Of a stretch of DNA of 64,000 bases, positions 5,056 through 59,828 are shown one piece after another. Source of the stretch: Protonemura montana (Eukaryota > Arthropoda > Insecta > Plecoptera > Nemouridae); contig OX387603.1 in the NCBI GenBank assembly GCA_947568835.1, positions 10,413,943 through 10,477,942 of the forward strand, written 5' to 3'. The notes beneath the pieces were generated by a model. It made no database searches. It saw nothing but the letters and a program-made list of their open reading frames with translations, and had not been told where the DNA came from. Position 1 is the first letter of the stretch. Every line of letters begins with the position of its first letter. The position numbers and the translations under genes are program-made.

Positions 5056-5138
5056 CTGATATTCCCTACCAAAACATGACAGTAATTTACATTCTCATAT
5101 TTATTTTCACTTCCTTTCCGAATTTTCGGGGCACACAT
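5056..5138 (-). CDS. Candidate first coding exon, unknown gene
   Basis: On the minus strand an ATG (5138-5136) opens a frame of 27 codons plus 2 nt (starting MCAPKIRKGSENKYENVN) that ends exactly at CAG followed by GTGAGT, a consensus splice donor at 5055-5050. An in-frame TAA lies 21 nt before the ATG, so this ATG would be the true start of any protein here. The CpG-rich promoter-like island at 5340-5720 lies just upstream on this strand, which is the expected arrangement for a gene running leftwards towards Pgd. The peptide matches no family I recognise and I could not find exon 2. ATG-to-donor coincidences of this size are common, so this is a lead and not a gene call. Confidence 0.22.
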
Positions 5139-27392: not shown

Positions 27393-27567
27393 ATGAGTAA
27401 GCTCTACGTTGGTAATTTGCCGGCTGACACGAGTGAGGTGGAAATCCGTGATCTCTTCGCAGAGCATAACATTGCATGCAGTACGGTGCTAGTGAAGCGT
27501 GGTGGATATGCCTTTGTGGATTGCCCAGACCAGATGACAGCTGACAGAGCTATCGACAAATTAAATG
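27393..27567 (+). CDS. Imp: IGF2 mRNA-binding protein (Imp), first coding exon with RRM1
   Basis: This encodes the first 58 residues of an IGF2BP/Imp/VICKZ-family RNA-binding protein, which in animals packages, localises and stabilises mRNAs in cytoplasmic granules and is prominent in neurons, germ line and growth control. The translation starts MSKLYVGNLP. LYVGNL (residues 4-9) is the RNP2 motif, and RGGYAFVDC (36-44) is the RNP1 motif of the first RRM, followed by DQMTADRAIDKLN. The second residues and the LYVGNL/GYAFVDCPD phrases match the family start, so I chose this ATG over the upstream in-frame one at 27171. The exon ends in phase 1 at a perfect GTAAGT donor (27568-27573). Family proteins are usually about 560-600 residues, so most of this one lies downstream. 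Confidence 0.93.
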
Positions 27568-36285: not shown

Positions 36286-36352
36286 GCGCTCAGCTGGGAG
36301 AGTCGACGATCGTGGTGGAACCCTCTGTAGCCGTCTCTGGCGCCAAGAAAAG
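36286..36352 (+). CDS. Imp: Imp exon 2, end of RRM1
   Basis: This 67-nt internal exon follows a pyrimidine-rich tract and TTTTCAG (acceptor AG at 36284-36285) and ends at AAAAG with a GTAAAC donor. Taking the single base left from exon 1, it reads GAQLGESTIVVEPSVAVSGA followed by KK and the first two bases of an arginine codon. This continues the sequence DKLN of exon 1 and provides the last beta strand of RRM1. The family has a VE-S-V phrase with a basic tail at this place, and IVVEPSV followed by KKR fits. The exon starts in phase 1 and ends in phase 2, so it cannot be skipped between exon 1 and exon 3 without a frameshift. The match in phase, position and family pattern makes chance unlikely. 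Confidence 0.88.
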
Positions 36353-41593: not shown

Positions 41594-41641
41594 GGATTCG
41601 TTGACCGGCCTGAACGAGGGCTATTCCGACAATGGCTGGAG
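41594..41641 (+). CDS. Imp: Imp exon 3, probable 16-residue cassette in the linker
   Basis: A 48-nt exon between a strong acceptor (CCTACTTTTCCAG, AG at 41592-41593) and an AG/GTAAGA donor. With the two bases carried from exon 2 it reads arginine, then DSLTGLNEGYSDNGW, and again leaves two bases (AG). It starts and ends in phase 2 and its length is a multiple of three, so it can be included or skipped without changing the downstream frame. It would lengthen the linker between RRM1 and the following domains with a polar, Gly/Asn/Asp-rich segment. The splice sites and frame are plain to see. I cannot confirm it by family homology, because linkers are poorly conserved. The alternative is a pseudo-exon. 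Confidence 0.6.
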
Positions 41642-52376: not shown

Positions 52377-52799
52377 TAGCCAACTTGTCAGCTGTCACTC
52401 GACCTGCAGGGATAAAGTGCAGTTAGTGCCGCCGTAACTGCAGTTGGAGCCTAACTGCATCTCTCCATCGAGCCAACTAAAGTTTGACATTTGCGGTTGC
52501 ATCGTCGACGGGCATGCTCTCTCGTGCATCAAGCCATGAAATTAATATCTAATTGAGCCCTCAAACGTCGTAAATTTTTAAAAGAGTTATGGTAAAGAGT
52601 TTTTTTATGACGTGGATGTAAGGATGGTTTCACAGGCCACTTGGAGTGGAAAGGGCTTCGCAGTCGATCGCATGTTCCGGGCCAGTGATAAGATCCGATG
52701 AGATGCAACGAGTGCAGTCTCTCTGCACGGTGCAATGGTCGCATGCACTTGTTCGTAATTCTGTAATCTTGCCCAATCATCAGCAACGTGCGTGCTCTG

Positions 52800-55700
52800 A
52801 AGAAGGAAGTCTTCTAGTTGCGACGCAATAGCCCCAAAAAGCAGCTGTCGCGGTCGCGCCCAACGGCATGCATGCGTCCCGGGCCAGAGAATTTTTCGGA
52901 AAGTTTTGCCGACAAAAAAGTGTTTGTCCGGCTTGAGGCAAGTTGCCGGCAGAAGGCGCCGACGTCGCCGGGACAAGGCGCGACCGCCGGTGATACATTC
53001 GACCGAAACGGTTCTTTGCGTCGTCCCCGAGGATCCAAGGGCTGGCGTGCACCAAACGTCCCGACGCCGGTGCACGAAGGAAGTCCCGCCAGGGAATCGG
53101 CGACATGGCGATCGTGCCGCGGCGGGCTTCTCTCGATGTTGCATGCTTGGCCATACTGATGGTCACATGCACTTAACAAAACGTGCACTAGACGAGAGTG
53201 GGCTTTACAGACAACGAGGCAATATCGCAATAGGCGTCGTTGTCACGGTTCTCTACCCTTCTATAAAATCGCTTGCCCTTCTCAGACGTGAGGGCAAGTT
53301 GCCCTTTCGCCGTCCGGCAGAAGCGATAAGTCTACGACGACGGGCCGTTTCCGAAGCCGGCCTTTCGCTCTTGGTGGGTCGTAAGTGTTGCGCTCTCCGC
53401 CACGCGTGGGGGTGCTTCGGCGTCGCGAGCCCTCTGACCCGCGTGACGGTCACCGCGTGTGCAGATCACCTTCCGACAACCACCGGGCATCGAGTGCATC
53501 TAATTGGGCTGACCGATCATTAATTGCCGTGGCCAGGTAGCGCTGGAGGGGGGGGGGGGAGGGGGGCGTCTTGGCCGGGAGCTGCGAAGGGCAGGTGGCG
53601 GATCACATGAACATCTCTTCTAGGAAGCACACGCTGCCAGCTAAGAGCCGACTTCAAGTCTCTGCAGAGCATCGCGCGGAATGAGAGCCGGCTGCGGCGC
53701 AGGGTGGCACGTGTCGGTTTCGCCGACTTGTCCAAGTGTGGATGAGTTGCTGGTCTCTGGATATTTACTACCCAAAGTTTCATCTCCGACTCGATGTTAT
53801 GTGTACCAGCAACCACGGCTCGTGGCTCGCTCTTTGTGCACGCGTTCAGTCATGCGCCGCGGGCTGTGAGAAACTCGGGAGTTCTTGCGGTGCACGAGCC
53901 CCGATGGTTTTGGGGCGCTGTCAGCCCCCTCGGCCCACCACCTCCCCTGGCCTAGGTTGCCCGGCCGATTTCGGAAGTGGATTTTCGTCTGTCTTGCCTT
54001 TCGGACCATCTTGTACTCACGGGAGAGGGCCTGTTCGATGGCGGCGGTGGGGCGAGGGGCGGAGGACGTGCGATCGCCCCTCGTTTTCGCGACGAGGAAG
54101 GGGCACAGGGTGGGGCGGGGTGGGAGGAGCGCGCGAGGGGAAACGACTCGTTTGCGGCGCTCGCCATCGAGTCAGTTCCCGAGGATCGGCGCTAGAGTGT
54201 GCAGCGTGGCAAGGTGTAGGCCCCGCATGATGGATATTAGAATTGTTCAGCAAGTACCAACACTATTATCAGCAGGACGACGCTTGCAGCCAGCGTCATC
54301 AGCGTCGATCAGATTATAGCAATCGCTGAGACCGCGACCGCGCGTCTTCGACACAAGCGCGTGACTCGTGCTGGCATACAGGAGGCCGACAACGACGACG
54401 TCCAAACTAGGTGCAGTGACCAGTGCAGTGCAGTGACAAGTGGACGGCGCTGGAAGCTCAGAAAGCTCGCCGCCTATCGGTAATTGGAAGAGTGAATTTG
54501 CCCCCGTCCCGACTTGTCTTCGCCGGTACGCGGGGGTGCAGACTTGTTCCCGGTCGCGGACACGTGCGTCCATGGCTGCACACCCGCGTACCGGCGATGC
54601 AGGGCTTGCCGGCATGTGTGCCGGCTTTCGGTACGCGGTCGGCCAGTCGACATGGTCGGGCAACGTGGCAGCGCTGAGTGCAGTCGGATTCGTCGCCGCG
54701 GAGGTTCGCGTTCGCGTTAATTGCTTGCGTACACAGACGGAGGTGGCCGCCAGAGCGACGCCTTTGCTATGGCAGAGTGTTTTCCACGAAGCGTCGGCGT
54801 CGCGGCGCTTAAACGACAAGTTTTCCCACACACTAGACGCCACACGTCAAACGTCTTAGCGCTTTGGCCAGTACTACGCGATTGGTTTACCTCGTTATGC
54901 CCCCGGTGTGATTTTACCGGATGTCGACGCCGCTTTTCCTACTCGGGCAACGCGGCACCGCACGGAAAAGCTGGTTTCCCAAAGTGCGGGCGACTAGGTG
55001 ATATCGTCGCCGGCCGTTTCGACCGCGTCGGCCGGGCGAAGCGCGCGTGACTCGACCGCACTCGGGCGACCGCTCTCTGGGGCCCTCGATGGGCGGCCGT
55101 ACCACCTGACGTCACCACCCGCCCGCCGCCCGCCGGGGACACGACATTCTTATGCGAGACCGAGCGAGCAAGACGACCACGTGATCGCGACGCGCGCGGC
55201 GGCGGCGCGTTCACGGAATCGTGCAATTCGACGCGCGAATTCGGGACCTGCAACCGACAGCGTCGACCGGGACACTTGCGATGACAAGCGAGCTGCATGT
55301 TCCCGTTCTACGAAAGTCGTTCCATGGTGGTATTTTGACTCTGCATACAAGAACGCAGTTCGGTCCGGTTTCATGTTGCCGTCAACTGGGTTCCCTCTCG
55401 TGGGAAAGTTTGCCACCTTTGTAACCAAAAGTGTGCACATTAATTTCCTTCGCTCTTATATTTGATGGCCATCAGAATTCCTCTGTGGGGCTTCATTTTC
55501 CTAACTATCAGATCGTCACGAATACTCGAGGACATTCTTCCGGTAACCTTTCGTTTGCATGCCATTTTCACTTTTTTTCAATTCGCCGTTATCATTAACT
55601 CCAATATTGTATGGAGACTTCTACGCCTAAATGTCTAAACAGCATGCCCATGCCTACATAATGGGGCTTGCGCTCCAAGTGTTGCCCCGTAGGAGCCCAT

Positions 55701-56460
55701 TGGGGCGCGACGACGGCGCGCTGACGAGCACAGTGATTGCGCGAATTTCCACCCTGGTCTCGCGGACCGGTTTCGCACATACACACACACACATACTCTC
55801 GGCGTGCAAACCCGTTTGGGCGACGGCGGCGGCGGCGGAGGCGGCACGATGCGTTACCGCCCGGCAGCCGGTTCGCTGTGATTGTGCCACTCAGTGCTCA
55901 GTCACGTGCCGAAGACCGGTTCCCGTGACACCCGCCGTTTCTGTGCGAGCGACGTCCTAAACGGCGTCGGCGTAGCTTCGTTTTGCCGGCGTCTTCATGA
56001 CCACGTGGTCGTCTAGATGATCGGCCTTCCGTGGGCAGGAAGCTCTCGAACGTGGCGTTTCATAAATTTTTAACATGCATGAGTTTACGTTATGGCTCTT
56101 CTATGCACCTTACGGTCGATACTTTTGAAGATAATGCACACTCGCAAACTAAACGTCGTTAAACTAAACTATTTCAACAATCGGTCTCCTTTTTATCATT
56201 CTTGTAGAATCCTGGCGAAAATTTCTCTCTTTCGTATGCGTCTTCCATTATTTTATAGCTGCAACCTACATGTAAATTCTTCTCATGCCAATCAATTGGT
56301 AGTGCCCACAAAATCATTGCCGATTAGGTGAAATATATGAGTTTTACGAGCGATCAATTTTCGTGCACGAAATCGACCAAGTCCGACACTCACAGCGCTG
56401 CCCCTCGTCGACCGACGCTTGCCTCCCTTCGACGCCGACATCAACGCGACTTTCTTTCAG
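52800..56460 (+). promoter_or_regulatory. CpG-rich domain before the alternative Imp first exon
   Basis: About 3.6 kb of dense CpG and GC-rich sequence in an otherwise AT-rich intron. It contains many GC-box-like and CACGTG words, including the 12-base palindrome GACCACGTGGTC at 55999-56010. Stops are rare simply because of composition, giving overlapping open frames on both strands. It ends just before the candidate first exon and is the natural place for its promoter and possible noncoding 5' exons. I see no TATA box at a fixed distance, so initiation may be dispersed. Confidence 0.5.
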
Positions 56461-56804
56461 ATCGACGTGACGGCGCCATCGACGCAGCAGCCACTAGCTA
56501 CTCGTGATATTGTGATAAGACTTGACAGCGAATTCGAGGTGATCTACAGTAGTCAGGAGCGAGGAAGATTTGCGAAAAAGACGTGATCAATTCAGGATCT
56601 AAAAGCTAGGAAGTTGTGCGATACGTCTTTATTGGAGGCAGGAGAAAGAAGTGTGATTGTGATCTCCACAAGCCAACACCCAGAAGTAAAGAAAGTGAAC
56701 GTGTCAGTTTGGAACGCAGCAGATTTTTGAAGTGAGCATCGAGGTGTTCTTGAGGAGGGAAATCAACGAGGAACACGAGTAGTGGACGCGGAGGGCGTCT
56801 GCAC
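56461..56804 (+). other. Candidate 5'UTR of the alternative Imp first exon
   Basis: The sequence before the ATG carries an in-frame TGA at 56751-56753, so translation of this frame cannot begin further upstream. A TTTCTTTCAG acceptor-like sequence ends at 56460, which allows either a spliced leader exon from 56461 or a continuous leader starting in the CpG-rich domain. Confidence 0.45.
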
Positions 56805-56914
56805 ATGGAGTTTTCGGACGACACATACTTTCCGACTTCAGCTAGCACAATGGCGCTGTCGCCGGAAGCCCAGGGCAACGGCGATGAGGACGACGTCGTT
56901 GACGAAGATATCAG
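56805..56914 (+). CDS. Imp: Probable alternative first coding exon of Imp (RRM1-less isoform)
   Basis: ATG at 56805 opens 36 codons plus two bases, ending ATATCAG with a GTAAAT donor at 56915. The peptide begins MEFSDDTYFPTSASTMALSP, continues EAQGNGDEDD and ends VVDEDI. It is strongly acidic, and an in-frame stop lies at 56751-56753. The donor leaves two bases (AG), exactly as exons 2 and 3 do, so it can splice to the same next exon beyond the window. Alternative promoters that remove the RNA-recognition part are known in insect Imp genes as I recall, but I cannot prove membership because exon 4 is not visible. The alternative is the first exon of a separate nested gene. A second in-frame ATG at residue 16 could also serve. 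Confidence 0.55.
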
Positions 56915-59422
56915 GTAAATTTCTGCGAGTATGTCTATGGCACATCTATGTGTACATGATTTCTGTTGAAGATTGTTTGCGGACTGCAAATATATACACT
57001 TTTTTTCCTGGTGGTGTAAGGTATAGTCGTTTCCTAGTGAGAAGAAGGGGTAGTCTGCACATAAAGGAGTACTTGTGATGATGGTTCAAGTCATTGCTCA
57101 TGACTTATTAGTCGACATAGCCTGTCAATGGCGGTCAAAGATGTTTATTAGTTGTCGTTGGTTAAAAGGGTACGTGCTGTAATCCCAGGATGTCGTAGGT
57201 CATCAATGGTTAATACAGCTGTGAGCCACTATTTCGAGTGATTTTGGGATAACACCGGTGTGGTGTATTTTGTAATCGGGTCGCGACATAGTTACTATAT
57301 TTTTGGAGGCAATTGTTACATTTTTGCCGCTCTTTGCTCTCTTCCGGCGTGTTGTTTGAACAGTCACATTTCTCTCTAGCTCACACTATGTCGCTTTTTC
57401 TCTGATAAGCAATAACAAAAACGCTCGTGATGATAAACGTCCTGATAAGCGTTTCTCACCCTCCCTATACTGAGCGTCATTGCTACAAGATCACCTACGG
57501 CTCGAGCCTTCACTTACAATTTTAAACTTGCTATCGTTTCATTGGGGTACTTTCTGATTTATTTGTACCTGCAAGGTTATTATCGAATAAATTGGTGGTA
57601 TTTTGAGAAAAATAGGCTCAAAGCTTGCCACGCGTTTGTCCCGCTGAAGACTTAGTTCAAAGTCTTCAACACTTGGCTGAAGTGTTTCGAAGGTTGCAAC
57701 ACCGTCGTCCAACTCAATACGAGGACCGCAACTTATGGAAGTTGACGAATGGCGAAGTTGACTATATAGACACATCATTGCTGTTTTAGGTACACATAGA
57801 AATATCGAATGTGAAATCTTTTTCTTTTAATTTCCTGTAACCATCTTAAAGTACCGAACTTTGCACGGCTGAAGAAATCCAATCTGTAATCGACGCTCGA
57901 ATAACTATCCATAAGATTCGGTCAGCGAGTATTTTATCGTCTAGAACAACCGAAGACAAGACAGCTGCATCTTACCATCCCACCGATCGCGAATCCGAAC
58001 TGCGATTGGCAAAGATCGCGGCAACAACTTCATCTTCGCGGTGCCTACTCGCAAGCGTCATACCATGGTCATGAACAAGGCTAGATCCATTCATCTACGT
58101 CGTGATCGAGTATACTGTGTTGTGATGGTGTGTGACCTTTGTTTGTCGCGATTCATTGATAGTTCGCGTGGGCAGCGGATGCCCCCTGCGAAGAGGTCGC
58201 CCATGAGCTGTGTACATGTGTTACCAAGAAACGCGTGTAGTGGTTGTTGACTGTGTATCATTGATTTCTGAAATATTGCTTGGCTAACTCGATTAAGTTC
58301 TACGGGACACTAAAAGCCCCATTGTTGAATCTCGCGGGTAGCCAGATAGAGAGGTCTTCCAAGATCTTGTGCGGTGAGAGGTAGAGATTTACTTACTGAA
58401 TTTGAGAATTAACGAAATTCGGATACTAAATAAAGTTGAAATTCCAAAGTTATAGCTTAACCTAATTTGGGGTCGTTAATAATGGGTTGTTTTGACAACG
58501 GGCCTTAAGGCACTGGTCTAATTGGTTTAGGTTAATTTGGCATTGGGTTAGTGCCGGAGGATTATTTCATTTGGGCAGTACATTTAAAAAAGCCAATTTG
58601 AGATCCGAAGGGTCAATTTACTACTGCAAGAGTATTTCTTAACATTGTATGATGAGCACGCCAGAATAAACACATAGGAAGTTGTTCCGATTCTGCGTCA
58701 TGCGGATAAAATTGGCTGCGTATGCCTCTTCATAATTTAGTGGGTTTCATTATCGGTAGTAGTAAATGTACTGTATGTTTAAAACTGAAAACGCACAATT
58801 TAAATTTAAATTATTAAAGGGTGGCACGCACGAGCGTTTTCCCAACTAACCCGGCCTGATTAGGTTATGAAATTTTGACTAGCTATATATCATAAAATGA
58901 TTATATATATATATTTATATCCAAGGACGTAGATAATTCGCATTTCACGAAAAAACGCTATCCACCATCCAGTTTTATCAAATGGGCGAATATTTTTTTT
59001 TGCCCATGCGGAAGCTAACTCGCTTAGTATAAAAAGATAAAAATAATTGCAGTCCAAAGTTTATTTTTTTCCTAATGAATTCCGCCCGCATGAATGTTAT
59101 GAAACATTTTTCCATTCCTCGTCCGTGTAGTTGGTGAAAACATTTTGATTTTGTGTGTCAACTTAATCGAAAATCGAAACCCGCATTGTGATTTTCACCT
59201 TTTGAGCTATTTTCGTTTTTCACCTCAATTAAGATAAGATAATATTTAATACAGTATTCGATTTGATATACAGTGATAGACAGTATAGAAATGCAGGAAC
59301 TCAATGCGACTTCGCAAATGACATTTTTTGTAATCAAAACGCACGCGATATGAAACTTGAAATTATGATTCTTGATACCTAAACCTCCGATTAACTACCG
59401 AACGGTTTGGCGTTTTGAAAAC

Positions 59423-59828
59423 ACCGGTTCTTGTGAGATCACCAAAGTTAAGCAACACTGCGCTGAGTCAGGTATTGGATGGGTGACCATTATACTCATG
59501 ACGAGCTCTGTTCAGGAGAGAGGTTGGAGGGATGCAAGTTAGTACATCAACTTCATTCGCCTTGCTTATCAACCTCACGACAGCATGGATTTGTGGAAGA
59601 TTTCTAATGTTCGCGTTGTACCGTCTTTCGGAAGGGACGTTAAGCCGATTGTCCCTTTGGTGCTGTTCGACAGGAGTAGGCTACGTGCCGGCACCGGGTT
59701 TCCCCTCCCTTCTATGCTAGGTCAGGTTCATCATCATCCTCGTAATCATAATCATCCGCTCGTTCACCGACGCCATCAGACCAGTGCCGCAGGGTCAGTT
59801 GTCAAAACAGTGCGTCGTTAAGCCCCAA
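59423..59828 (+). repeat. 5S rRNA-derived SINE, best-preserved copy
   Basis: The head (about 59423-59490) reads GGTTCTTGTGAGATCACC, then AAAGTTAAGCAACACTG, then TTGGATGGGTGACC, which follows 5S rRNA including its internal promoter region. The body has GGCACCGG with CCCCTCC, a CATCATCATCC run, and a tail AAAACAGTGCGTCGTTAA, matching the copy at 29789-30118. It is a retroposon and not a functional 5S gene, since only the 5S middle and 3' part is kept. Confidence 0.85.

Follow-up and report, generated by a model that had tools for sequence, protein, structure and literature searches.

An exon of 110 nucleotides that we term A1 probably serves the single-copy gene Imp (IGF2BP) as a genuine alternative first coding exon, spliced to the third coding exon of that gene (E3) and transcribed from an internal, intronic promoter. 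It lies in a 64,000-nucleotide stretch of Protonemura montana DNA, hereafter the window. The exon itself, with its upstream stop codon, its splice donor and its phase, is confirmed by inspection, and its role as an alternative first exon of Imp is likely from what can be read in the genome sequence. The protein predicted for this exon would carry a short acidic segment in place of the first RNA recognition motif (RRM1).

Exon A1 and the predicted Imp gene

The features that bear on A1 and on its upstream region are these.

56805..56914, plus strand: A1, candidate first coding exon of an alternative transcript, with 36 residues; CAG/GTAAAT donor, phase 2
56850..56852, plus strand: second in-frame ATG, codon 16 of A1; context ACA ATG G, against CAC ATG G at the first
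56340..56804, plus strand: candidate 5′ leader of A1, ATG-free; possible splice acceptor before 56461
52781..56100 (52781-55400 plus 55601-56100), no strand: GC/CpG-rich tract, candidate promoter region, defined by composition

The initial annotation described an ATG at 56805 preceded by an in-frame stop, and an exon end at an AG/GTAAAT donor in phase 2. Both descriptions hold, the nearest upstream stop being the TGA at 56751 and the donor reading CAG/GTAAAT. Because 110 nucleotides correspond to 36 codons plus 2 nucleotides, A1 ends in phase 2, and it indeed shares this phase with Imp exon E2 and a 48-nucleotide candidate exon, as had been stated. The donor agrees with the consensus at 8 of 9 positions, and ten other Imp donors scored alongside it agree at 6 to 8 of 9; if the donor were not used, the frame would close at a stop at 56916. 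The encoded peptide is MEFSDDTYFPTSASTMALSPEAQGNGDEDDVVDEDI, and the acidic character previously ascribed to these 36 or so residues is borne out by 11 acidic residues and a complete lack of lysine and arginine. An A at position -3 makes a better start context, and the first ATG of A1 has a C there. Since the second ATG, at codon 16, stands in the better context, a shorter tail of 21 residues is also possible.

Searches of Pfam and PDB gave no match to the A1 peptide, and exact strings from it did not occur in open-licence papers. A single place in the genome was found for the DNA (a 701-nucleotide region) and for the peptide, which rules out that A1 is a transposable element or other repeat. 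It was likewise rejected as a coding cassette exon: the TGA at 56751 closes the frame 54 nucleotides upstream, and no acceptor scoring at least 10 is present from this stop to 56799.

The Imp gene was modeled from genomic sequence as ten coding exons (E1 to E10) whose joined frame is open for 645 amino acids. Coordinates above 64000 carry the window numbering on into the adjoining genome sequence.

27393..27567, plus strand: E1; holds the start codon plus the first 58 RRM1 codons; phase-1 donor
36286..36352, plus strand: E2; end of RRM1; donor AAG/GTAAAC, phase 2
41594..41641, plus strand: E2b, candidate in-frame cassette exon of 48 nucleotides, located between RRM1 and RRM2; both of its ends in phase 2
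75299-75481, plus strand: E3, beyond the window; phase-2 acceptor; RRM2 begins here
79643-79894, plus strand: E4; phase-2 acceptor
80342-80495: E5
81029-81256: E6
81866-82168 (L010:7866-8168), plus strand: E7
82545-82736: E8
83700-83951: E9
84642-84773 (L011:642-773), plus strand: E10

The translation of E1 begins MSKLYVGNLPADTSEV, and the E1 sequence occurs at one place in the genome. E2b encodes 16 residues, including DSLTGLNEGYSDNGW, and has an acceptor that scores the same as that of E2; if included, it would extend the linker between RRM1 and RRM2. The protein spliced from E1 to E4 contains two RRM_1 stretches according to Pfam and aligns over 165 residues with the RRM1-2 structure of human IGF2BP3 in PDB (E 1.8e-25), and a query made from E7 to E10 aligns with the KH3-KH4 structures of IGF2BP1 and IGF2BP2. 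We take Imp to be a single-copy gene because the RRM1 exon and the KH4 exon have one full-identity place apiece in the genome; six other KH matches reach 30-46% identity. On the same grounds a second Imp gene was rejected as the partner of A1.

Several other features of the locus were recorded along the way. The linker between KH2 and KH3 of Imp (E7, L010:7866-8168, plus strand) holds a run of 22 glycines, and the gene model, which stops after 43 codons of E10, has no glutamine-rich tail of the kind that has been reported in Drosophila Imp. A sequence resembling 5S rRNA lies in the Imp intron at 59397-59517 of the window on the plus strand, scoring 43.5 bits (gathering threshold 38). Among 3,719 first-look candidates, 40 further places were scored, with 80-93% identity; because the element is thus part of a dispersed repeat, it is probably a 5S-derived SINE. 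Downstream of Imp on the opposite strand there is a coding-like segment (L012:4049-4195, minus strand) that by eye we take to be a nuclear receptor DNA-binding domain, and a long coding-like frame (L014:3505-4197, plus strand) resembles a retrotransposon gag protein by eye.

Proposed joining of A1 to E3 and the region upstream

The initial annotation had proposed that A1 joins a downstream Imp exon. A suitable partner exists in E3, a phase-2 exon 18.4 kb downstream, and A1 followed by E3 to E10 is in phase and forms a single open frame of 601 amino acids. The changed RNA specificity that was claimed along with this joining is a consequence that we infer. Pfam finds one RRM in the predicted protein, at residues 46-114 and corresponding to RRM2, and four KH_1 stretches. 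Provided that the A1-E3 junction is made, RRM1 would thus be absent and KH1-4 retained. RRM1 is contained within E1 and E2, whereas E3 starts at residue 81 of the 645, in the linker that leads to RRM2, so that use of A1 would exchange one whole domain.

Immediately upstream of A1, the sequence is unusual in its lack of start codons. The previous ATG is at 56337, and from there 465 nucleotides run free of ATG and end exactly at the ATG of A1. In the 124 kb scanned, only 2 of the 2,006 plus-strand ATGs, namely those of A1 and at 5076, are preceded by a gap of this length; on the minus strand it is 3 of 2,032. In a Markov-1 model of the stretch itself the probability is 0.0016 (0.16% of 20,000 runs). 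The stretch looks like a 5′ leader that has been selected against upstream starts. A plausible splice acceptor stands before 56461, with a score of 13, equal to the scores of E2 and E2b and reached by 61 of the 1,690 AGs in the intron. The leader may for this reason be spliced from the GC/CpG-rich tract.

That tract had been described as 3.6 kb of CpG-rich DNA leading up to A1. Its main part is real, with the interval 52781-55400 being the longest in the 124 kb to have a GC content of at least 0.55 and a CpG observed/expected ratio of at least 0.65 (2,620 bp, the next longest being 1,060 bp), and a further GC/CpG-rich piece of 500 bp is present at 55601-56100. The final 0.7 kb before the exon is not GC-rich, and the longest tract ends 1.4 kb upstream of A1. 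A search for core promoter elements between 55.8 and 56.8 kb gave five Inr-like sites, none of the five with a DPE, and did not find a TATA element. The same scan before E1 yielded no Inr-like site, so its outcome says little about A1.

A promoter in the intron that separates the exons of RRM1 from that of RRM2 would start transcripts upstream of A1. The signs of a start between E2b and A1 are indirect, namely the ATG-free leader and the GC/CpG-rich tract. The start could lie either near A1 or within the CpG-rich tract, in the latter case with removal of a leader intron whose last position is 56460. A1 would then be spliced to E3, as E1 and E2 lie upstream of the intronic start and could not be included. 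The product would keep RRM2 and KH1-4, with RRM1 replaced by a 36-residue acidic tail, or one of 21 residues if the second ATG is used, and contacts that RRM1 makes with RNA or with a partner molecule might be lost while binding driven by the KH domains would stay. We infer transcription from the intron, the A1-E3 junction and this effect on contacts alike. The acidic tail would precede RRM2 and a basic, RGG-like linker follows RRM2; as a guess, the tail may act as a mask.

Alternative readings of A1

It might be argued that A1 is only a chance open frame that happens to have a good donor, and that the GC-rich tract is an enhancer or a compositional patch. We therefore scanned the 33.7-kb intron (41642-75298) for open segments of at least 80 nucleotides that begin with an ATG, follow a stop in the same frame and end in phase 2 on a donor matching at least 8 of 9 positions; these thresholds were set with knowledge of A1. 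The exon was the sole plus-strand match, and the minus strand gave none. In 100 Markov-1 simulations 0.7 such structures were expected in the intron, a number that leaves room for coincidence. However, the expectation for the same structure together with a codon score near that of A1 was 0.0, and none of the 100 simulations produced it. When donors were relaxed to 7 of 9 positions, there were eight plus-strand and six minus-strand matches in the intron, among which A1 alone reached its codon score. Over the whole 124 kb the strict scan returned two plus-strand and three minus-strand matches, and those with a codon score of at least 5 bits, on both strands, were A1 and one that lies inside the real exon E4.

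The codon score was also compared with those of 15,657 open 36-codon windows of the intron, taken from both strands and overlapping. The score of A1 was reached by 0.30% of them with a model trained on other RRM-bearing loci, by 0.72% with a model trained on Imp and by 0.06% with a model trained on both; for GC-matched windows the figure was 0.08% of 10,563. In a free scan for coding-like segments, by contrast, the signal of A1 is modest: at 12.3 bits it ranks 25th in the 124 kb, in the company of many segments that do not look like genes. This would fit a chance frame. Such a scan is weak for short exons, since the real exons E1 and E2 are not among the 45 segments listed. Coincidence would, in addition, have to account for the ATG-free leader, which is unusual in its own right, and we consider a chance origin of A1 improbable.

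If A1 is a real exon, it could still belong to something other than an RRM2-containing Imp transcript. Transcription from the CpG-rich tract might instead yield another gene's transcript or a long non-coding RNA, with A1 as its first exon. In our estimation this is very unlikely, even though the promoter-like tract upstream fits that reading and there are four other ab initio phase-2 exon candidates between A1 and E3. None of these four resembles a known domain by eye. Moreover, a different gene would make the fit of phase and domain boundary to E3 a coincidence (phase alone would fit 1 time in 3), and none of 20 selected long intron ORFs contained a Pfam domain at E 0.1. These ORFs comprised two sets of ten, the second consisting of nine plus-strand ORFs from the region between A1 and E3 and one minus-strand ORF at 74746-75204. 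As they are a selection, a small unknown gene is still conceivable.

Similarly remote is the case in which A1 is a true Imp first exon that is joined to E4 instead of E3, giving a protein with no RRM1 and a cut RRM2 that would in effect be a KH-only Imp, as in Drosophila. The E4 acceptor is also in phase 2 and the A1-E4 frame is open as well, the remnant of RRM2 left by this joining has no Pfam match on its own, and in the excerpted part of PMC4477473 Drosophila Imp is described as lacking both RRMs. Against this joining, E3 is nearer, its acceptor scores the same as that of E4, and it leaves RRM2 whole where E4 would cut it. Splicing of A1 to E3 hence remains the reading that we prefer. Half an RRM, moreover, is unlikely to fold, which also counts against E4.

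Relation to known Imp isoforms

The predicted A1-E3 protein belongs with the Imp/IGF2BP (VICKZ) family by its four KH domains, the family criterion, all of which are present in the 601 amino acids. The two N-terminal RRMs that mark the vertebrate form are found in the E1 isoform only, and the predicted A1 isoform has one. The primary paper on an N-truncated variant of IGF2BP1 (CRD-BP) is said to be that of Fakhraldeen et al. 2015, and in mouse the start of this variant reportedly lies in intron 2. As described in the excerpted text of PMC8891971, the variant arises from an internal promoter, keeps all KH domains and predominated in the breast cells studied, tumour and non-tumour alike. On that description it is like the A1 isoform in its internal promoter, in belonging to the same gene family, and in retaining the KH domains while losing an N-terminal part. 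It is, however, termed N-truncated, whereas the A1 isoform would add an acidic N-terminus of 36 residues and keep RRM2. Because a mammalian N-truncated isoform of Imp/IGF2BP is already known, the idea of an isoform from an internal promoter is less novel than it had first seemed.

IGF2BP2 has a 58-kDa isoform that starts at Met69 and lacks RRM1 (PMC3299737, in part). RRM1 is thus absent as in the A1 isoform, but the 58-kDa form is made from one mRNA by leaky ribosome scanning, and for A1 a second promoter is proposed. Transcript variants of IGF2BP2 that lack an RRM are also mentioned in an excerpt of PMC11439276. Drosophila Imp has four KH domains without the N-terminal RRMs of vertebrates, according to partial texts (PMC4477473, PMC6565635, PMC3708292), the last of which also assigns most RNA binding in the family to the KH part. 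The fly protein is comparable to the A1 isoform in that an Imp of an insect functions with its four KH domains and without the N-terminal RRMs of vertebrates. It lacks both RRMs, however, whereas RRM1 and RRM2 are both encoded in the present gene and one isoform would drop only RRM1.

For IMP2, head-to-tail dimers have been described, with the C-terminus of one molecule contacting the N-terminus and RRM1 of its neighbour (review, PMC11942581, in part). If such dimerization holds in insects, the A1 isoform would alter self-association in addition to RNA contacts. In the open-licence literature, no N-terminal alternative Imp isoform of an insect was among the matches listed, and annotation databases may already predict one. 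For hymenopteran and silkworm Imp, N-terminal isoforms were likewise absent among the matches listed (the best 5 to 15), and PMC3654919, as excerpted, is irrelevant to the matter.

A broader scenario would make the internal promoter and the acidic first exon an old insect feature. In flies, a promoter of this kind would have become dominant and the RRM exons would have disappeared, leaving an RRM-less Imp. The acidic tail would mimic RNA and mask RRM2 or the basic RGG linker, so that promoter choice would set the tightness of RNA binding or of self-association by Imp. We regard this scenario as doubtful and offer it as speculation. The finding would gain wider weight only if A1 proves to be conserved and tied to the loss of RRMs in flies.

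If the proposed structure is true, an insect Imp locus makes RRM1-bearing and RRM1-less proteins by promoter choice. The locus would have an N-terminal switch of the kind known from mammals, and it would provide a testable route to the loss of RRMs in flies. Imp regulates neural timing, the germ line and RNA granules, and such a switch would therefore matter for experiments on Imp in RRM-bearing insects.
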